From positions 1 through 38,852 of the IMG/VR virus record IMGVR_UViG_3300007734_000669: a stretch of 38,852 nucleotides of DNA, one strand, 5' to 3'. This document shows positions 2,380 to 10,406 of this stretch, piece after piece; within the stretch, counting starts at the first letter, position 1, and every line of letters starts with the position of its first letter. Source of the DNA: a virus. The position numbers and the translations under genes are program-made. Below the pieces are notes generated by a model. The model searched no databases and was not told the DNA's origin. It worked only from the letters and a program-made list of their open reading frames with translations.

Positions 2380-2480
2380 GTATCCTCCTAGTACCGGATG
2401 AACCGGAATCAAATTTCATTTTACCAGGGAAGATGATTACTAGGCGCCAGCTTTTTAATAGACCCGTCCCCACTAAAAGA

Positions 2481-2613
2481 TTACCAGGCAGTTCGGGCTT
2501 AGCGCCCGAGGGAGCCTTAAGCGAACTGAGGGGTAAGTCATCGCTCGTCCTAGGGGGCCTCGCTAGAGGCCAGTGAGGGTCGCAAAGCATACCCTTCCCC
2601 GCTTTGCTCCCCT
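2481..2613. other. Three consecutive stem-loops, possible structured RNA or packaging/origin element
   Basis: Three inverted repeats follow each other without a credible gene. (1) 2481-2536: TTACC/GGTAA (2481-2485 with 2532-2536), a 3x3 internal loop, CAGTT/AACTG (2489-2493 with 2524-2528), enclosing the perfect CGGGC/GCCCG hairpin (about 2494-2508). (2) 2556-2571: GGCCTC-GCTA-GAGGCC, perfect 6 bp with a 4-base loop. (3) 2576-2613: AGGG/CCCT, a 2x2 internal loop, then GCAAAGC/GCTTTGC (2582-2588 with 2601-2607). Strand and function are unknown. It could be a small RNA, the 5' leader of the terminase transcript, or a DNA structure used in packaging or replication. Confidence 0.5.
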
Positions 2614-2678
2614 ACTATATATAAGGCAGGAAATTATAGGCATTTCCCGTTTTTAGAAAGTGATACTCGTCACATACA

Positions 2679-2691
2679 ATAATAGTATTAT
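2679..2691. promoter_or_regulatory. AT palindrome ATAATA-G-TATTAT
   Basis: A perfect 6+1+6 palindrome in the AT-rich part of the long non-coding region. A smaller GTGA/TCAC inverted repeat lies just before it (2660-2673). On the minus strand a TATAAT hexamer sits at 2633-2638 without a convincing -35. The cluster could be an operator or DNA-unwinding segment between the divergent terminase and early operons. Function inferred only. Confidence 0.3.
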
Positions 2692-2906
2692 AACCGCAGG
2701 TCAGAGGCGATTAGATCTCACTTTAGGAAAAATATATGTTGTGGGTACATAACACCAGCCCACCTGCAGATTCACTATATGGGGTTCCGTTGCCGAGCCT
2801 CAACCTCTACTAAAGGGTTAGACTTTACCCTCTCTACCCTGTCTCTTCTAGTCTGCAGTGGGAAAGAGTGGGGGAAAGTGGAGAGGGATACTCTCCCTCC
2901 GGCACA

Positions 2907-3100
2907 CCTAACCCTCTCGCCTGTCTTCCCTCTCGCCTAACTAATGAGCAGACTAAGCGCCTAACCTCATCGAGCTATTGACCTAACCGGATCGCTATTG
3001 CCTAACCTCTTACCCTCTAGCCTTACTCAAGACTTAGACACTAGGCGCCTGTACGTCTAGGCATAATCGTTACCTAATCGTTACCTAATAAGCTGCCTAA
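2907..3100 (+). repeat. Iteron-like cluster: eight CCTAA boxes
   Basis: CCTAA (followed by C or T) occurs at 2907, 2936, 2960, 2982, 3001, 3073, 3084 and 3096, all in the same orientation. Chance would give well under one in 194 bases. Two copies lie in an 11-base tandem repeat AATCGTTACCT (from about 3066), and the last three are spaced 11-12 bases, one helical turn. Two others share the longer context GCTATTG-CCTAACC (near 2975 and 2994). The array ends right at the -35 box of the early promoter. It suggests binding sites for a phage initiator or repressor, and hence an origin or control region. Confidence 0.55.
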
Positions 3101-3105
3101 TAGTA

Positions 3106-3134
3106 TTGACAGGGTATAGTCACGCATATATCTT
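3106..3134 (+). promoter_or_regulatory. Early promoter, sigma70/HrdB type
   Basis: Perfect TTGACA at 3106-3111, then a 17-base spacer and TATCTT at 3129-3134 (four of six consensus positions, including the important first, second and last). It points into the plus-strand early operon whose first ATG is at 3184, giving a leader of about 40 bases that contains the hairpin at 3139-3167. The CCTAA array ends 5 bases upstream of the -35 box, so binding there could control this promoter. Confidence 0.65.
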
Positions 3135-3138
3135 TTAA

Positions 3139-3182
3139 CTAGTGGAGCTCACCTACCATTCCACTAGATAAAGGGTTAAGAT
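3139..3182 (+). promoter_or_regulatory. Leader module 1: CTAGTGGA hairpin plus AAAGGGTTA start element
   Basis: A perfect 8-bp inverted repeat CTAGTGGA (3139-3146) / TCCACTAG (3160-3167) with a 13-base loop, followed by AAAGGGTTA (3170-3178) and the ATG at 3184. The same order (hairpin, CACTAG, AAAGGGTTA, ATG) returns before 3952 and 4381. AAGGG probably acts as the ribosome binding site; the constant TTA after it is not explained by Shine-Dalgarno pairing alone. Confidence 0.5.
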
Positions 3183-3183
3183 A

Positions 3184-3543
3184 ATGACACGATCCAAGCA
3201 GGATAAAGCAGACTTTATCGCTAACCTACGCGCTGGCGTAGAAGCATTAAAGGATCAAGGTATCAAGCCACCTAGTAACCTACTAGATAGCTTCTCACCT
3301 AATAACGCATTGATGATTATATTGCAGAAGCCTAGCGCGACACAATGCGCGGGATTCCACGCGTGGCGTGAAGCTGGCAGAAGCGTAAAGAAAGGATCAC
3401 GTGGCGCAGCTATCCTTGTTCCAATAGGCGCAGATGATGACGGAGATTTAAGGTTTACGTGGCGATACGTGTTCGATATTGCAGACACGGAGGAGATTAG
3501 CGAGACATCTCCACGTCTAGCGCGTGAGATGGCGGTAGCGTAA
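3184..3543 (+). CDS. ArdC-like antirestriction protein, N-terminal domain only
   Basis: 119 residues. The pattern FSPNNALMIILQKPSAT, then GFHAWREAGRSVKKGSRG, then ILVP and YVFDI matches the ArdC N-terminal (DUF1738-type) fold, a single-stranded-DNA-binding domain of antirestriction proteins carried by plasmids and phages. The C-terminal peptidase-like domain of full ArdC is absent. It is the first gene after the early promoter, where a protein shielding incoming DNA from host restriction would be expected. Its stop overlaps the next ATG. Family assignment rests on motif pattern; the antirestriction role is inferred. Confidence 0.65.
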   Translation: MTRSKQDKADFIANLRAGVEALKDQGIKPPSNLLDSFSPNNALMIILQKPSATQCAGFHAWREAGRSVKKGSRGAAILVPIGADDDGDLRFTWRYVFDIADTEEISETSPRLAREMAVA

Positions 3544-3692
3544 TGGCTAAGTCTCTTGTTAAGGTTATGAAGCAAGGTGTGGAGATTATTAACGCAGAAT
3601 TGACTATTACGCAGCAGAAAAAGATCCTTGCAGCGTGGAAAGAATTGGAAAAATACGGTATAGGCTTCAATGATGAGAAAGTGAGCGCATAA
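3543..3692 (+). CDS. Small helical early protein, unknown
   Basis: 49 residues, MAKSLVKVMKQGVEII, with a likely helical hairpin (TITQQKKILAAWKELEKYG). The ATG shares its A with the stop of the ArdC-like gene (TAATG), so translation is probably coupled. Charged, no cysteines, no membrane segment. No family recognised. Tiny, tightly packed genes like this are typical of phage early regions acting on host processes; a specific function cannot be given. Confidence 0.6.
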   Translation: MAKSLVKVMKQGVEIINAELTITQQKKILAAWKELEKYGIGFNDEKVSA

Positions 3693-3693
3693 T

Positions 3694-3870
3694 ATGACTA
3701 TGAGCGCAGCTAACCTTATTCAATGCCTAGCTGGAGATCTTATGGCAGATCCTGGCCTATTATTCGAGACTATACGAGAGGAGGAGGATATTCTACGCGT
3801 TATCCGCAGTTATAAACTAGGAGATTTTACCTATGCAGATGTCCTAGACACGGTAAAGGATTACATCTAG
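3694..3870 (+). CDS. Small acidic early protein, unknown
   Basis: 58 residues, MTMSAANLIQCLAGDLMADP, acidic middle (TIREEEDIL) and an aromatic C-terminus (YADVLDTVKDYI). Starts one base after the previous stop; a second ATG two codons on (MSAAN) is an alternative. Codon use resembles its neighbours and the frame is clean from start to TAG. No family recognised. It ends the first sub-block of the early operon; a strong hairpin follows directly. Confidence 0.6.
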   Translation: MTMSAANLIQCLAGDLMADPGLLFETIREEEDILRVIRSYKLGDFTYADVLDTVKDYI

Positions 3871-3875
3871 TGCTT

Positions 3876-3950
3876 TACTATAGGGGAGAGTATGGTATAT
3901 CCTCTCTCCTATGGTAGCTCACTAGGGGCTAACTATAGAAAGGGTTAGAG
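3876..3950 (+). promoter_or_regulatory. Leader module 2: 15-bp hairpin, CACTAG, AAAGGGTTA
   Basis: 3876-3890 pairs with 3902-3916 over 15 consecutive positions (two G-U), closing an 11-base loop. It is followed by CACTAG (from 3920) and AAAGGGTTA (3939-3947), then the ATG at 3952. No U-run follows the stem, so it is unlikely to be a simple rho-independent terminator. It could be an RNase processing or mRNA-stability element, or the site of a small regulator acting on the next gene. Confidence 0.5.
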
Positions 3951-3951
3951 A

Positions 3952-4305
3952 ATGAAGCAGGATAAAGTTATCAATGAGCAAGGCAGAAAGATTACTACTA
4001 CCTACACGCTGGAGAATAACTATCGTGTAAAGGTATCTACCTACCATTCCCCTACTAGTAAAGTCATCTATTCAATTTTATCGGAATGTATAACCGGCAC
4101 TAGTGGGATCTTTACTATGGAAACTTTTATGATGTATCGAGATCTTAACGAGAGAGTAATAAGTGAGCCGGTGGCGCGTTACTCTTTCAAGGTACTACAA
4201 GCTCAACACGAGCGAGCTATTGAACAAGCAGCGCAGAAAGTCGCGCTATTACTAGCGCAAGGAGAAGCAGGCGAGAGAGAGTGCCAGGCGAGAGAAGCTG
4301 CGTAG
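3952..4305 (+). CDS. Early hypothetical protein, 117 residues
   Basis: Starts MKQDKVINEQGRKITTTYTL and is likely beta-rich in its first 80 residues (alternating YTLENNYRVKVSTYHS, KVIYSILSE), ending in a long charged helix (HERAIEQAAQKVALLLAQ). One cysteine near 47 and one in the tail. It begins with the repeated AAAGGGTTA start element and has 75 bases of hairpin-bearing leader on each side, so it is expressed as a discrete unit within the early operon. No family recognised. Confidence 0.7.
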   Translation: MKQDKVINEQGRKITTTYTLENNYRVKVSTYHSPTSKVIYSILSECITGTSGIFTMETFMMYRDLNERVISEPVARYSFKVLQAQHERAIEQAAQKVALLLAQGEAGERECQAREAA

Positions 4306-4311
4306 TGTTTG

Positions 4312-4380
4312 CCTATCGCCTATCCGCTAAGGGTAGGCGGTAGGGAGATACTAGGTCTCCACTAGCGAAAGGGTTAGACA
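4312..4380 (+). promoter_or_regulatory. Leader module 3: 11-bp hairpin, TCCACTAG, AAAGGGTTA
   Basis: 4312-4322 pairs with 4334-4344 over 11 positions (one G-U), again with an 11-base loop. Then come TCCACTAG (4358-4365) and AAAGGGTTA (4368-4376) before the ATG at 4381. Stem sequence differs from module 2 while loop length, order and downstream elements are kept, which argues for a conserved element and against simple duplication. Confidence 0.5.
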
Positions 4381-4731
4381 ATGGAACAAGAATATGGCCG
4401 TCCGTTTGATGAGGATACTCTCATTCAACAAATCGGAATTCGTAACGTCGCAGCTATATCTGGCGGACGTGTAGGCGTGTATAAGCCGCAAGGAGAGTGT
4501 GTAGAAGTCGAGCTGCCAGTATCTGCCGGATATTGGGTAAGGATCACACTAGCCTGGGACGATACCTACACCGTCGAAAGAGTGTTAAAGCGTAGGCCTA
4601 AGGGGAAGAGTGCGAAAGAGATTAAGGTATTAGGTCGCGTTGAAGGTGTTTATTGCGATCAGGTGGGAGAGGTTGCCTACTACGCTTCTTGCTATAAGAA
4701 TGTCAAGTTTGGCCAGGAGGTGAGCGCGTGA
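4381..4731 (+). CDS. Early hypothetical protein, 116 residues
   Basis: Starts MEQEYGRPFDEDTLIQQIG. The middle looks like a small beta domain (VGVYKPQGECVEVELPV, YWVRITLAWDD, TYTVERVLKRRPKGK), with a basic stretch KRRPKGKSAKEIK. Ends KFGQEVSA, overlapping the next GTG. Start chosen by the conserved AAAGGGTTA element 4 bases upstream. No family recognised; the basic patch would allow nucleic-acid binding, which is speculation. Confidence 0.7.
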   Translation: MEQEYGRPFDEDTLIQQIGIRNVAAISGGRVGVYKPQGECVEVELPVSAGYWVRITLAWDDTYTVERVLKRRPKGKSAKEIKVLGRVEGVYCDQVGEVAYYASCYKNVKFGQEVSA

Positions 4732-4853
4732 GCGTAACTATCACAATGCCTAAACAATGGGATAAAGAAACTGCATTAGCTATATTAGACGTTTATATTG
4801 AAGGCTTAGATCGTGGGTACATTCTTACTATGACAGAAGGAGAGGGCAACTAG
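4728..4853 (+). CDS. Very small early protein, 41 residues
   Basis: GTG start at 4728 overlaps the previous stop by 4 bases and has a strong AGGAGG about 7 bases upstream. The product begins MSVTITMPKQWDKETAL and ends TEGEGN. A beta strand plus helix is plausible (ALAILDVYIEGLDRG). Strong ribosome binding site and exact overlap on both sides support it as a real gene in spite of its size. Function unknown. Confidence 0.6.
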   Translation: MSVTITMPKQWDKETALAILDVYIEGLDRGYILTMTEGEGN

Positions 4854-5008
4854 TGGAACACTTAACGCCTAGAGGTTGGTTAGTAGTTGGGATTTTAATT
4901 GGGTTGGCTACTTGGGGACTTTGGGAAGTAGCGAGTCACCTATTATGGACTGGCAATGGTTGGCAGTGGTGCAAGGATCTATTAACGTGCGAGGGAGAGG
5001 GTAAGTAA
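4853..5008 (+). CDS. Small single-pass membrane protein, early
   Basis: 51 residues from GTG at 4853, sharing its first G with the upstream TAG. One hydrophobic Trp-rich segment (WLVVGILIGLATWGLW, about residues 9-24) predicts a transmembrane helix; a short hydrophilic C-terminal part ends CEGEGK. It could be an inner-membrane protein for superinfection exclusion or takeover. It is unlikely to be the lysis holin because it sits in the early operon and a holin candidate is present in the late region. Confidence 0.6.
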   Translation: MEHLTPRGWLVVGILIGLATWGLWEVASHLLWTGNGWQWCKDLLTCEGEGK

Positions 5009-5220
5009 TGAGCGTAGACGTAGTGTTTTGGTATGCGGAAGAGATAGTGAATAAAGCCTATTTTACCGCTGAAAGTAAAGAGCAGGGAGAGTATTTAATG
5101 AAACAGTTACAAGACGGAGAGATTACAATAGAAGACCTCCCTGATTTTTATTCTAAAGTAAAGAATTATGAAACTACGATTGATGAAGCTCAATTTTATT
5201 TAGCGGGAGAGGTAAAGTAA
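5008..5220 (+). CDS. Early hypothetical protein, 70 residues
   Basis: Starts MSVDVVFWYAEEIVNKAYF; acidic (EQGEYLMKQLQDGEIT), ends FYLAGEVK. The ATG overlaps the previous TAA by one base and GGGAGAGG stands 6-8 bases upstream. It has an alpha/beta look with Tyr/Phe-rich strands. Its stop codon shares bases with the next ATG. No family recognised. Confidence 0.65.
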   Translation: MSVDVVFWYAEEIVNKAYFTAESKEQGEYLMKQLQDGEITIEDLPDFYSKVKNYETTIDEAQFYLAGEVK

Positions 5221-5447
5221 TGATCGAATTAAGCGAGAGTATCTATCGCCTAAGTATCCGAGAGTTCGAGGATATGGAGAGCGAAAGTCAGAGAGCGTGG
5301 ATAGTAGATCTATTAGACACTAATGGTAATTGCATAGTAGAGGGAGCTGGCGTAGCCGGTACTTTAATGGCAGCTATGGGAGAGGCGGGTAAGGCTATTA
5401 CCTTACACCTAGCTGATGAATGGCTAATGGCAAGGGGGACACTATGA
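5220..5447 (+). CDS. Early hypothetical protein, 75 residues
   Basis: Starts MIELSESIYRLSIREFEDME; strongly acidic N-terminal half, Gly/Ala-rich middle (VEGAGVAGTLMAAMGEAG) and helical end. It begins at the last base of the previous stop and its TGA overlaps the next ATG (ATGA). GGGAGAGG precedes the start. No family recognised. Confidence 0.65.
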   Translation: MIELSESIYRLSIREFEDMESESQRAWIVDLLDTNGNCIVEGAGVAGTLMAAMGEAGKAITLHLADEWLMARGTL

Positions 5448-5578
5448 GTAAAGTAAAAGAGTGCGTAGAGCCAGATGAGATGATATGGGAAGATTGCGAT
5501 AAGCCAGATCATCATAGTTGCTACGTAATGGTATGTCCTGGGTGTAATACTCGCTTTCCAGATTGCGAGGATAACTAA
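5444..5578 (+). CDS. Small Cys-rich putative zinc-binding protein
   Basis: 44 residues with six cysteines and two histidines: Cys7, Cys18, His23, His24, Cys26, then a CPGC knuckle (31-34) and Cys41. The CPGC turn is typical of zinc ribbons. ATGA overlap with the upstream gene and TAATG overlap with the downstream gene point to coupled translation. The next gene encodes another CxxC protein, so the two may be related or work together. Specific role unknown. Confidence 0.6.
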   Translation: MSKVKECVEPDEMIWEDCDKPDHHSCYVMVCPGCNTRFPDCEDN

Positions 5579-5739
5579 TGAGTTATGAGCCACCATTAAA
5601 TGATCCAGTATTTAATGAGCCGGAATACTGGCGTTGCGCTGGGTGTAATGAGTACTTTCACCCAGAGAAATATGATTGGCACGTGGACGAGGAATGCCCT
5701 GGTCCACTAGGAGCAGGAGAGGGAGAGAGTAATGAATAA
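5578..5739 (+). CDS. Small zinc-finger-like protein, CxxC...H...H...C
   Basis: 53 residues, MSYEPPLNDP. Cys20, Cys23, His28, His35 and Cys40 are spaced like a small zinc finger (CAGCNEYFHP, then WHVDEEC). The tail GAGEGESNE is acidic. Starts at the last base of the previous stop and overlaps the next start by 8 bases. Together with the previous gene it makes a pair of candidate zinc proteins, plausible DNA- or protein-binding factors. Not assigned to a named family. Confidence 0.6.
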   Translation: MSYEPPLNDPVFNEPEYWRCAGCNEYFHPEKYDWHVDEECPGPLGAGEGESNE

Positions 5740-5893
5740 AGAATACCTAGAGGCTAAGGCTAACCTATGCCTTAATCAAGCTGAGAAGGATCTCAAGCAG
5801 GAAGAGATAGCAAAGGCTATCAAAAACTTAGAGCGTGCCAATAGTGCGCTATCACGCCTATTTGGGCTGAGAGAAGAGGACGAAAATGAGTAA
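5732..5893 (+). CDS. Small coiled-coil-like protein
   Basis: 53 residues, MNKEYLEAKANLCLNQ. Almost entirely helical with heptad-like hydrophobic spacing (EIAKAIKNLERANSALSRL) and a very acidic end. GGGAGAGAG stands just before the ATG. Overlaps both neighbours by 8 bases. Probably an oligomeric or partner-binding peptide; function unknown. Confidence 0.6.
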   Translation: MNKEYLEAKANLCLNQAEKDLKQEEIAKAIKNLERANSALSRLFGLREEDENE

Positions 5894-6128
5894 CATCTAT
5901 ACCATACACCCAAAGAAGTCCCCACTTATCCTACTCTATGAGGTAGTGGACGAGAATGGGAACGCTGAATGGGGAGGTAATAACCCTGAACATTGTATGC
6001 AATGGCTGAGCCTTGCTCCTAGCAACTCCCGTGTGCTGGTATCTGGGTGGGAGAGCGATGAAGAGGACGCTCACCTAGTAGGCCAGAGCCTAGACATCAC
6101 CGACATAGTACGGGCAGCTATCTTATGA
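5886..6128 (+). CDS. Early hypothetical protein, 80 residues
   Basis: Starts MSNIYTIHPKKSPLILLYEV and contains DENGNAEWGGNNPEHCMQWL, then a beta strand (SRVLVSGWESDEED). Acidic overall. Its TGA overlaps the next ATG. The composition resembles actinophage early proteins of unknown function; no domain recognised. Confidence 0.65.
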   Translation: MSNIYTIHPKKSPLILLYEVVDENGNAEWGGNNPEHCMQWLSLAPSNSRVLVSGWESDEEDAHLVGQSLDITDIVRAAIL

Positions 6129-6208
6129 GCCTAGCTTTAGGTCTGATACTAGTAATGCTGGTAGCATATGTTCTCATAGTGTGGGAGGACAAGATCAATG
6201 GAGAGTAA
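6125..6208 (+). CDS. Tiny membrane peptide, 27 residues
   Basis: MSLALGLILVMLVAYVLIVW followed by EDKINGE: a single hydrophobic helix with a short charged tail. ATGA overlap with the upstream gene and an 11-base overlap with the downstream gene argue that it is translated. The second tiny membrane protein of the early operon (the other is at 4853-5008). Small, so moderate certainty. Confidence 0.45.
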   Translation: MSLALGLILVMLVAYVLIVWEDKINGE

Positions 6209-6479
6209 GCAAGTAAGCGGGAGACAAGTAGTTCATTACCGCAACTATCGAAGAGCAAGAGACAAGGCGCTAGTGCGCTTAGCTCACCTATATCCGGACA
6301 CGTACAAGCAACTGCTTGATGAACAAAGGAGTTTTGATGAGCAAGAGGGCAAGACTTGGAGTATTACTCCTGATGCTAGGCTTACTGTGGGTATTCACAC
6401 CAGAGCAAATAGCGCACCACCCTTTGGAGATCCCGCAGATGCGGGAGAGGACGAAGGCGACAATGGAGGAGAAGCGTGA
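6198..6479 (+). CDS. Conserved actinophage-type protein (RNYRRARDKALVRLA family)
   Basis: 93 residues. The segment RNYRRARDKALVRLAHLYP followed by YKQLLDEQRSFDEQEGKTW is a pattern I recognise from many actinophage early proteins of unknown function. The basic helix suggests nucleic-acid binding. The C-terminal tail (SAPPFGDPADAGEDEGDNGG) is acidic and disordered. The last 143 bases are also read in another frame by the transglycosylase-like gene starting at 6337. Confidence 0.75.
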   Translation: MESKQVSGRQVVHYRNYRRARDKALVRLAHLYPDTYKQLLDEQRSFDEQEGKTWSITPDARLTVGIHTRANSAPPFGDPADAGEDEGDNGGEA

Positions 6480-6750
6480 GAACAAGGCGCTTATCATTAG
6501 TTACCTCAACGCACTTGGTTACAACAACAGTCAGGTCAAATGTGCTATCACCCTTTGGACCCGTGAGAGCAGGCTTGACCACTTGGCAGCCAACAAACGA
6601 TCAAGTGCTAGAGGAATTGCTCAGCTCCTTAGAGAGAGAAGTAGCGAACCTGCTATCCAAATCCTCCACGCTGTGCGATATGTTGAGCACCGTTACGGCG
6701 GAAGTTTCTGCCGTAGTCTCCAACATAGCAACAGACGAGGCTGGTATTAA
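6337..6750 (+). CDS. Lytic transglycosylase/lysozyme-like protein with N-terminal signal anchor
   Basis: 137 residues. Start at ATG 6337 because AAAGGAG stands 5 bases upstream; the frame is open 21 bases further. Residues 8-20 form a hydrophobic signal or anchor (GVLLLMLGLLWVF). The rest resembles the lysozyme-like transglycosylase fold of actinobacterial phages: NNSQVKCAITLWTRESRLDH with a candidate catalytic Glu77, SSARGIAQLL, YVEHRYGG and a terminal GWY. Expected to cleave peptidoglycan outside the membrane. It is unusual in being early and separate from the late CHAP lysin; it might remodel the wall or act in superinfection exclusion. Confidence 0.75.
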   Translation: MSKRARLGVLLLMLGLLWVFTPEQIAHHPLEIPQMRERTKATMEEKRENKALIISYLNALGYNNSQVKCAITLWTRESRLDHLAANKRSSARGIAQLLRERSSEPAIQILHAVRYVEHRYGGSFCRSLQHSNRRGWY

Positions 6751-7218
6751 ATGAAACTAATACTAGATCCAGCATCTTCAATGAGATCCTTTTACTTTGA
6801 TAAAACAGATGAGCGCGTAGTCTTTGGTGACATACGAGAAGATGAGACACACCTACTCACTAATGGTCAGACAATCAAGATTAAGCCAGATGAAGTTATG
6901 GATTTCAGGGCAATACCCTATCCAGACGAAACCTTTGAGATGGTGGTGTTTGACCCACCACATATGTTAAGGCTTTCCGAGAAGTCCTGGATGCGTAAGA
7001 AGTATGGAGTATTAGACAGCGAAAACTGGCGAGATGATTTGACCAAAGGTTTTGCTGAATGCTTTAGAGTATTAAAAACTAATGGCACTCTGGTATTTAA
7101 GTGGAATGAAGTGTCTATTCCGTTAAAAGAAGTGCTGGCTCTTACCCCCCCCAATACAAGCCAGTTCTTGGACATCCTTCGGGCAAGAGGATGGGTACTC
7201 ATTGGGTATTATTTCTAA
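6751..7218 (+). CDS. DNA methyltransferase (DPPH motif), C-terminus shifted at an 8-C tract
   Basis: 155 residues as read. The DPPH motif (68-71, after FEMVVF) is the D/N-PP-Y/H catalytic motif of N6-adenine/N4-cytosine methyltransferases; RVLKTNGTLVFKW is the usual following strand. After the run of eight C at 7145-7152 the annotated frame gives an unfamiliar tail. The frame reached by a -1 slip (equivalent to nine C) gives QYKPVLGHPSGKRMGTHWVL and ends at 7223, which matches the expected GH-PSGK-THW end of this family. It begins directly after the transglycosylase stop and closes the early operon. Confidence 0.8.
   Translation: MKLILDPASSMRSFYFDKTDERVVFGDIREDETHLLTNGQTIKIKPDEVMDFRAIPYPDETFEMVVFDPPHMLRLSEKSWMRKKYGVLDSENWRDDLTKGFAECFRVLKTNGTLVFKWNEVSIPLKEVLALTPPNTSQFLDILRARGWVLIGYYF
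7145..7152 (+). repeat. Homopolymer C8 at the frameshift point of the methyltransferase
   Basis: Eight consecutive C in the codons LTPP. The family-consistent C-terminus is reached only with nine (or six) C, or by a -1 slip. Three explanations fit: a sequencing or assembly miscount, slipped-strand phase variation, or programmed frameshifting on a C-run. A second run of exactly eight C occurs at 7494-7501 in the next methyltransferase gene. Confidence 0.75.
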
Positions 7219-7226
7219 AGTAAATG

Positions 7227-7253
7227 TGCTAGGTTTCTAACCCTTTCCTAGCA
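7227..7253 (+). promoter_or_regulatory. CTAGG hairpin carrying the inverted AAAGGGTTA motif
   Basis: TGCTAGG (7227-7233) pairs perfectly with CCTAGCA (7247-7253); the 13-base loop contains TAACCCTTT (7238-7246), the reverse complement of the early start element. It lies just after the methyltransferase, at the end of the early operon. The 13-base loop equals that of the hairpin at 3139-3167 at the beginning of the operon. Possible regulatory or recombination relic. Confidence 0.4.
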
Positions 7254-7259
7254 AACAAA

Positions 7260-7287
7260 AAGCCCTCGCCGTAACTGGCGGGGGCTT
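7260..7287 (-). terminator. Rho-independent terminator between convergent operons
   Basis: AAGCCCTCGCC / GGCGGGGGCTT stem with a 6-base loop. On the minus strand it is followed by TTTTTGTTT, a classic terminator for the long replication operon that ends at 7340. On the plus strand it is followed by CTTGC only, so it is weaker for the early operon. A further perfect CAGGCG-GG-CGCCTG inverted repeat (7303-7316) lies in the same gap. Confidence 0.85.
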
Positions 7288-7339
7288 CTTGCTAGCACTC
7301 AACAGGCGGGCGCCTGCCAAGAGTTAAATAATAAACTAT

Positions 7340-9574: not shown

Positions 9575-9777
9575 TCCAACTCTTTCTTAATCGCTTGGAT
9601 TGTTGGGCACGGATACAAAACATTAGGATTACATTCGTTACATAGTTCCTCTAAATCACAACACATTTTATGCAACTCCACAACATCGCAAAGAATAAGC
9701 CAAGCGTTACGGTCCATTCTTAGTCCTGCTAATTCAGCGTAACCTTTCAACAATGCCAGCAATTCATCGTGTGTCAT
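9571..9777 (-). CDS. Small Cys-rich actinophage protein
   Basis: 68 residues, MTHDELLALLKGYAEL, ending LYPCPTIQAIKKELE. Four cysteines lie in CCDLEELCNEC and a fifth in YPCPT, suggesting metal binding. The YPCPTIQAI ending is one I recognise from many actinophage proteins of unknown function. Overlaps the sigma-like gene upstream by 4 bases. Confidence 0.75.
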   Translation of the reverse strand: MTHDELLALLKGYAELAGLRMDRNAWLILCDVVELHKMCCDLEELCNECNPNVLYPCPTIQAIKKELE

Positions 9778-10406
9778 CGGAAAGGTGACGCTCCCCCCAG
9801 ATTATCAATGAGTTTACGCAGAGAGTTTGCACACCTGCGATCTGCAGTGGATATAGCACATTCTAGTAATTGTGCTATCTGTTGCAAGGTAAAGCTATCG
9901 TGGTGGCGCAGACGCAGTAGCGTCTGGTCTTCTACTTCTAACTTCAAGTAGGCTTGCTTCATATCAATGAGCATTGCTAGCAGGTTGCCACCTTCTGCTG
10001 GTGAGGACTTACCTTTAGGCTGTCCATCTTGTACCATCTGCTGTGCCTGCTCTAATACTGTGCCATCTAACACCGAAGCGATAACAAAGGGAAGCAACTG
10101 ACCTACCGTTGCACTCTCGTAATAGGCTTCATCACTGATCTGATAGCCAGACTTGGAAGCCTTCTCCTTGCGTGCGTATCGCTCTGCTACACGTCTCATC
10201 TGCCACGCTATGCGCTGCTCGTTATGCTTACGCTTATCGGTATCAACCTCTGATAGTTCAAGAGCTAAATACATATTGCGAGTCAGTGCCCAAGCCAGTA
10301 TCTCTTGCTTAATATCATCACGTTCAACGTGTGTTTTATATCTACGATAGATAGTACCGGCCACTGAGTGGGCCAGTTCATAAATAGTCTGGTCTAGTTC
10401 AGTCAC
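9774..10406 (-). CDS. RNA polymerase sigma-70-like factor
   Basis: 210 residues. The N-terminal part resembles sigma region 2 (HVERDDIKQEILAWAL, then IAWQMRRVAERYARK). The C-terminal part resembles region 4: DQTLLRLRHHDSFTLQQIAQ, a turn, then TADRRCANSLRKL, the HTH that contacts the -35 element. The linker is Gly/Ser-rich. Such proteins in actinophages may direct host polymerase to phage promoters. It may equally be a diverged DNA-binding protein that lost polymerase contact. Overlaps neighbours by 4-8 bases. Confidence 0.75.
   Translation of the reverse strand: MTELDQTIYELAHSVAGTIYRRYKTHVERDDIKQEILAWALTRNMYLALELSEVDTDKRKHNEQRIAWQMRRVAERYARKEKASKSGYQISDEAYYESATVGQLLPFVIASVLDGTVLEQAQQMVQDGQPKGKSSPAEGGNLLAMLIDMKQAYLKLEVEDQTLLRLRHHDSFTLQQIAQLLECAISTADRRCANSLRKLIDNLGGASPFR

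Follow-up and report, generated by a model that had tools for sequence, protein, structure and literature searches.

A recurrent structured RNA between early phage genes with predicted pairing to the upstream stop-codon region

The window, by which we mean the whole stretch of DNA that was analysed, is an IMG/VR virus record of 38,852 bases. By terminase, its nearest named phages are an unannotated Caudovirales record and Streptomyces phages, and no relative of this terminase was found in the genome contigs searched. The first gene of the early operon, gene A (3184-3543, plus strand), encodes a 119-amino acid protein resembling the N-terminal domain of ArdC (Pfam PF08401, E 2.6e-5). It consists of this domain alone, without the metallopeptidase part, and 40 related viral loci have it. 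Further downstream lie a 58-amino acid open reading frame (3694-3870) ending in a UAG stop at 3868-3870, gene D (3952-4305, plus strand; 117 amino acids, from the open reading frame list) and gene E (4381-4731, plus strand; 116 amino acids). Gene E matches PHROG 9437, a family of unknown function (E 3e-6), and a Pfam search with the gene D protein returned no match. The early region is mosaic, with genes A and E present in only 2 of 45 other upstream regions searched. Neighbouring genes of the operon mostly overlap or nearly abut. Two gaps, of 75 and 81 nt, interrupt this arrangement, and both are occupied by the RNA element described here. Elsewhere in the window, the non-coding region ahead of the operon (2590-3130) contains CCTAAC five times on the plus strand and never on the minus strand, with about 0.13 copies expected from the base count; these copies are possible iterons or operator sites. 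Between converging operons at 7227-7290, a hairpin TGCTAGG/CCTAGCA is followed by a second G+C-rich hairpin, and the pair is probably a terminator region. A protein encoded at 9774-10406 on the minus strand resembles sigma factors of phages in PHROG (best E 4.5e-13) and might read phage promoters.

The original prediction held that the genes starting at 3184, 3952 and 4381 are preceded by one common leader architecture. We fetched homologues of genes A, D and E for leader comparison and found two kinds of leader: those of D and E combine two helices, P1 and P2, with a pseudoknot pairing, whereas leader A is a single hairpin near a promoter-like sequence. The promoter-like sequence (3106-3134, plus strand; TTGACA, 17 nt, TATCTT) agreed with the consensus at 10 of 12 positions and was the best site of the scan in a region where such sites are no more numerous than in shuffled sequences; a similar spacing can be read from the sequences of relatives. 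The predicted transcription start, near 3140-3142, falls where the hairpin of leader A has its base (3139-3167, plus strand; CTAGTGGA/TCCACTAG, 8 bp and a 13-nt loop as read from the sequence), which would put this hairpin at or near the 5' end of the transcript. Its folding energy is unremarkable against shuffles (z -1.3), and it covaries weakly, with compensatory changes in two of eight pairs among 12 distinct sequences; the stem becomes CTAGTGAG/CTCACTAG in the related contig L246, and L240 is similar. Leader A is not a member of the family to which the D and E leaders belong. That the first gene of the operon lacks the element is as expected if the element acts between genes.

A second part of the original prediction concerned AAAGGGTTA, which was taken for a constant box ahead of all three genes. 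This sequence has five copies in the window where 0.41 are expected, and the spacing is as described, with copies ending 5, 4 and 4 bases before the start codons at 3184, 3952 and 4381. The box is not constant, since in homologues of the A, D and E leaders its place is taken by AAAGGGTACGAG, AAAGAGAGAG, AAAGAGGGCAAG and similar purine-rich sequences, and this is the place where a Shine-Dalgarno sequence belongs. By position, the copy in leader A (3170-3178, plus strand) is the Shine-Dalgarno sequence of the open reading frame at 3184, with AAAGAGAGA-type sequences in its stead in homologues. The corresponding sequences of genes D and E, TAGAAAGGGTTA (3936-3947, plus strand) and GAAAGGGTTA (4367-4376, plus strand), include the copies at 3939-3947 and 4368-4376; both were assigned by position and vary in homologues. 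AAAGGGTTA is therefore best read as a Shine-Dalgarno sequence, and its variation rules out a conserved protein-binding or regulatory box. We take TAGAAAGG to be complementary to the common actinobacterial 16S tail, which may not be the tail of the host. Additional copies do exist at 2812 and 7238, the latter being the inverted copy that can be read in the 7227-7253 hairpin, as had been stated; they have no counterpart in L016, the closest relative of the cassette, whose single TAACCCTTT is located elsewhere, and both look like chance occurrences. Over the 17 nt before non-homologous starts, likeness was 0.639 within genomes and 0.569 between them (permuted 0.570, sd 0.015), and homogenised ribosome-binding sites follow the elements within genomes such as L217, L250, L251, L326 and L264.

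Upstream of genes D and E, strong hairpins stand out against shuffled sequences (z -3.1 and -6.4, respectively). When the window was searched with all filters off using R1, a covariance model built from 12 sequences, two elements were returned on the sense strand, and the next match was the antisense of the element at 4302-4362. Copy 1, in leader D, spans 3867-3933 (plus strand; 22.3 bits, E 7e-5 in the window), and copy 2, in leader E, spans 4302-4362 (plus strand; 54.9 bits, E 4.2e-14, recovered again in another search), a match obtained partly by construction because the E-leader family is in the R1 seed. The D-leader family is absent from that seed. We are confident that the two leaders are copies of one structured intercistronic RNA. 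In copy 1, the 5' strand of a third helix, P3, is CTAGTG (3867-3872, plus strand), which includes the UAG stop at 3868-3870 and is complementary to CACTAG at 3920-3925. The P1 hairpin follows at 3875-3917 (plus strand; 16 bp in the minimum-energy fold, in agreement with family covariation), and the P2 hairpin at 3915-3931 (plus strand) reads TAGCTC-ACTAG-GGGCTA, providing the 3' strand of P3. In copy 2, TAGTGTTT (4303-4310, plus strand) begins with the UAG stop of gene D at 4303-4305 and pairs with AGATACTA at 4346-4353 in the minimum-energy fold. Here P1 occupies 4312-4344 (plus strand; 14 bp, 5-nt loop, with a near-invariant U-G wobble at 4316-4340) and P2 occupies 4344-4360 (plus strand; GGAGAT-ACTAG-GTCTCC). 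The loop lengths of 13, 11 and 11 given earlier do not hold with a P1 loop of 5 nt in leader E, and the supposed CACTAG box dissolves into three different things: a hairpin 3' arm in A, the P2 loop in D and a linker after P2 in E.

In the family as a whole, the architecture runs in the order upstream stop codon, P1 (13-16 bp), P2 (5-7 bp), a short purine-rich Shine-Dalgarno stretch and start codon. The element is about 65-85 nt long and fills the space from the upstream stop codon to the Shine-Dalgarno sequence of the next gene. In folded leaders, P1 directly adjoins P2 with no gap, and the stems differ entirely among relatives. The P2 loop usually consists of one or two nucleotides followed by CUAG, which touches the P2 3' arm, and P3 joins this loop to a segment just upstream of P1 that usually holds the upstream stop codon. 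As a control, a scan looked for modules combining P2, its loop carrying one of 24 tetramers, with a stable hairpin upstream and a Shine-Dalgarno sequence and start downstream; it yielded 49 full modules (of 70 with P1) for CTAG and 0-15 for each of the 23 other tetramers. With R1, roughly 80 copies were found across about 50 related viral contigs, between unrelated genes. We compiled 82 sense-strand matches, some of which have E > 0.01 in their search and are supported by position and P3 no less than by score; examples from outside the seed are L010 (62 bits), L042 (49), L028 (48) and L073 (47). A match was present in 12 of 15 whole virus records, and the upstream genes belong to 31 unrelated protein families. 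By comparison, about 190 other viral contigs, selected by pattern, gave about ten sense matches, which indicates that the element is characteristic of this phage group and not general. It was absent from the stretches read of two named isolates, Streptomyces phage Stella and Caudovirales sp. ct2KA10, and 257 Gb of bacterial genomes contained a single pattern match, unsupported by the covariance model. Rfam release 15 at curated score had no match in the window, a permissive Rfam search of 2400-7300 gave sub-threshold hits only, and in 11 relatives Rfam found one tRNA and nothing else. A variant class with CCTA/TAGG lengthening P2 and with a weak or shifted P3 was seen on the minus strand at L073:6245-6312, L011:963-1034, L049:5404-5480 and L017:4319-4390. 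In many relatives the element adjoins an early protein of about 200 amino acids (minus strand; L007:5875-6480, L010:5498-6109, L049:5758-6354). In L010 this protein is similar to the beta clamp of DNA polymerase III in its central domain (PF02767, E 1e-7); for the L007 copy the match fell below the cut-off, and the L049 copy had none.

That selection acts on RNA structure, as originally proposed, is strongly supported for D and E by covariation, and the suggested check by covariance model bore it out. In an alignment of 54 elements, standard pairs filled 96.4% of cells, against 66.2% in shuffled and at most 57% in slid alignments, and covariation was 0.803 against 0.225 in shuffles, with none of 500 shuffles reaching the observed value and both sides changed in 17 of the 19 pairs of P1 and P2; these values are inflated because the alignment was fitted to the model, and the sets include related, non-independent sequences. 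The pairing is borne out by both controls, slid and shuffled, and by the raw leaders, and RNAalifold predicted the same helices from the alignment. Counted from the base of P1, the fourth pair is U-G in 51 of the 54 members and is followed by C-G in 47. Conservation of this wobble in a fixed orientation implies that the fold forms in the sense RNA strand, and its near-invariance suggests that the fold is recognised by a protein, ribosomal or phage-encoded, or through a tertiary contact. The element could be a translational operator, on which a host ribosomal or phage RNA-binding protein would bind the pseudoknot and control the downstream genes jointly. The most specific protein hypothesis of this kind is mimicry of the uS15 operator (PMC8470358, PMC10931766), which likewise has two-hairpin or pseudoknot alternatives and, in mycobacterial rpsO, a pseudoknot upstream of the start codon. 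Copy 1 of the window, however, has U-A at the U-G position, and an operator leaves the pairing with the stop codon unexplained, so that we consider it improbable. The base-step polarity in P1 may also differ from that of 16S helix 22.

The spread of the element over unrelated upstream families in a mosaic early region might instead mark conserved linkers that aid cassette exchange by recombination and have no RNA function, comparable to the boundary sequences of mosaic phages or to integron attC. What is conserved, however, is the pairing and not the sequence, the orientation of the wobble points to the sense RNA strand, and the position between stop codon and Shine-Dalgarno sequence is fixed. 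We therefore give this explanation very little weight. An attC-like core, GTTRRRY, was judged by eye and is not conserved.

The main feature of the element, which the original prediction overlooked, is that the loop of P2 pairs with the upstream gene's stop-codon region. P3 has a mean duplex energy of -5.76, compared with -4.47 (sd 0.22) when partners are permuted, with 0 of 300 permutations as good and an earlier scoring in agreement; in the subset without CTAG it is -5.17 against -4.11 (sd 0.29), with 0 of 500. Compensated variants include CTAGACG/CGTCTAG, CTAGGTA/TACCTAG, CTAAGCG/TGCTTAG and CTAAT/ATTAG, as well as ATTAGTG/TACTAAT, CTGG/CCAG and CGGTGC/GCACCG, alongside the CTAGTG/CACTAG and TAGTGTTT/AGATACTA pairs of the window. 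P3 is poor or absent in L049 (at 5404 and 6379) and in L307 (at 5744). Geometrically, a loop-linear pseudoknot would need CTAG to touch the 3' arm of P2, P1 and P2 to adjoin each other, and P3 and P1 to be joined by a short linker, and the element has all three. P1+P3 and P1+P2 differ little in energy (mean difference -2.3 kcal/mol, sd 3.1), which makes a two-state switch equally possible; P3 can form together with P2, giving a pseudoknot, or take its place.

For most elements, the upstream open reading frame has its in-frame stop codon at the P3 strand or shortly before it. Of the genes that immediately precede an element, 30 of 38 (79%) stop with UAG, as opposed to 55 of 417 (13%) for other genes on the same strand (Fisher 2e-17, a P value that, like others for stop codons here, is indicative because the counts include related sequences). 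UAG is the majority stop in 26 of the 31 unrelated upstream families. It lies at the element start or P3 strand (offset 0 or 1) in 47 of 60 cases, while UAA does so in 3 of 18 and mostly lies upstream of the element; in two of those three, L049 (5699) and L067, UAA falls within the P3 strand and the loop reads UUA. Stop-codon pairing itself is not universal, because the subset with P3 CGGTGC/GCACCG has its stop codon 8-13 nt upstream of the element start.

A UAG codon followed by a spacer and structured RNA is also the layout of a readthrough signal, as in murine leukaemia virus gag-pol, where a pseudoknot serves to make fusion proteins, and both gaps in the window are multiples of 3. Over 78 elements, however, gap lengths modulo 3 are distributed 28/28/22, and only 3 of the 78 are in frame and open into the downstream gene, which largely refutes this explanation and leaves it scarcely credible. 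Processing or stabilisation of the RNA is another alternative. The element is intercistronic in an early operon, with a long hairpin immediately behind the stop codon and purine-rich sequence after P2, and in the minimum-energy folds of D and E, P1 and P3 form a single stacked hairpin of about 20-24 bp. Such a hairpin (P1 with P3 stacked, about 20 bp) might be cut or act as a barrier between genes, so that the message upstream would gain a protective 3' hairpin and the one downstream a 5' hairpin together with its purine-rich Shine-Dalgarno sequence, in the manner of the T7 RNase III sites or the SP82 5' stabilizers. Yet this would leave unexplained the conserved P2 loop, its covariation with the stop-codon strand and the UAG bias, and P1 abuts P2, so that there is no single-stranded RNase E site between them. 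We regard processing as unlikely, though less so than the operator. As for an intrinsic terminator, which would have a G+C-rich hairpin with a run of U behind it, no terminator-like site was present at D or E, and P2 comes straight after P1.

Our preferred reading is that the element serves to couple or insulate the translation of adjacent genes, P3 being opened by a ribosome as it terminates, and we put its probability at about 0.4. With no ribosome on the upstream stop codon, P3 would form and create a compact leader fold directly ahead of the Shine-Dalgarno sequence, which might alter loading of the 30S subunit on the downstream gene. A ribosome terminating at UAG would cover P3 and the base of P1 and open the fold, allowing downstream initiation in proportion to upstream translation. 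Since a terminating ribosome would have to open P3, the fold would report upstream translation, and the anatomy of the element fits a coupling element. The gaps of 66-138 nt, on the other hand, are long for reinitiation. The folds of D and E hinted at the P2 3' arm as an anti-Shine-Dalgarno strand, but its pairing with the Shine-Dalgarno region is in general no better than with permuted partners (-3.09 against -3.04). The Shine-Dalgarno sequence is thus not generally masked by P2, which leaves the classic RNA-unfolding model without direct support. Somewhat more tentative than coupling as such is the fuller proposal of a phage-specific module, reused between dozens of unrelated gene pairs, with the stop codon as one strand of its pseudoknot and the other strand shortly before the ribosome-binding site of the next gene, acting as a termination sensor that would set expression of the next gene and constrain the choice of stop codon.

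If these proposals are correct, the element would be a structured RNA family beyond the Rfam models in the sequences scanned, and the identity of a stop codon would be selected as part of an RNA fold and not for termination efficiency. It would offer a compact, portable module for tuning the expression of adjacent genes in actinobacterial hosts, and a testable case of how viruses with dense early operons set protein ratios across their few long gaps. The results point towards a novel means of coupling adjacent phage genes in their expression.

We found no published description of the element in the literature searched (open papers), and we class it as a new family of structured RNA, a variant of the cis-regulatory RNAs that lie between cistrons. 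In phage T7, too, hairpins recur between early genes, at RNase III sites, where cleavage falls in a double helix of roughly two turns, and 5' stabilizers are known from Bacillus phage SP82; to our knowledge, pairing of a P2 loop with a stop codon has not been described for the T7 sites. MS2-type operators resemble the element in having a short hairpin with a conserved loop and a variable stem near a start site. They are single hairpins recognised by coat protein, for which neither a pseudoknot nor a P1 has been described.

The closest parallel among phages is the start-associated sequences of cluster K mycobacteriophages (SAS and ESAS; Pope 2011, PMC3203893). Like the element, they recur in actinobacterial phages where the ribosome binds ahead of some non-structural genes, these genes belong to unrelated families, and an inverted repeat often precedes the motif. 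SAS, however, is one conserved 13-bp sequence, GGGATAGGAGCCC or its equivalent, whereas the ribosome-binding sequence of the element varies between homologues and genomes. The arm sequence of ESAS is conserved, and its authors noted that departures from the consensus do not favour RNA pairing (PMC3203893); the arms of the element, in contrast, vary freely with compensation and involve a stop-codon strand. In E. coli and mycobacteria, the uS15 operators of rpsO mRNA form two hairpins or a pseudoknot, and a U-G/C-G step in them is important (PMC8470358). They resemble the element in having two alternative folds at a translation start, and the U-G and then C-G near the base of P1 in most members may correspond to this step, but they autoregulate one ribosomal gene from a 5' leader, with no part played by an upstream stop codon. 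In rpmI-rplT of E. coli, translation is coupled across a +52-nt gap that carries a pseudoknot, the operator of bL20 (PMC10931766, PMC12548453). There too, a long-range pseudoknot controls how a downstream gene, coupled to the one before it, is translated; it does so at a single host locus with a known protein ligand, whereas the element is a module repeated between unrelated genes.
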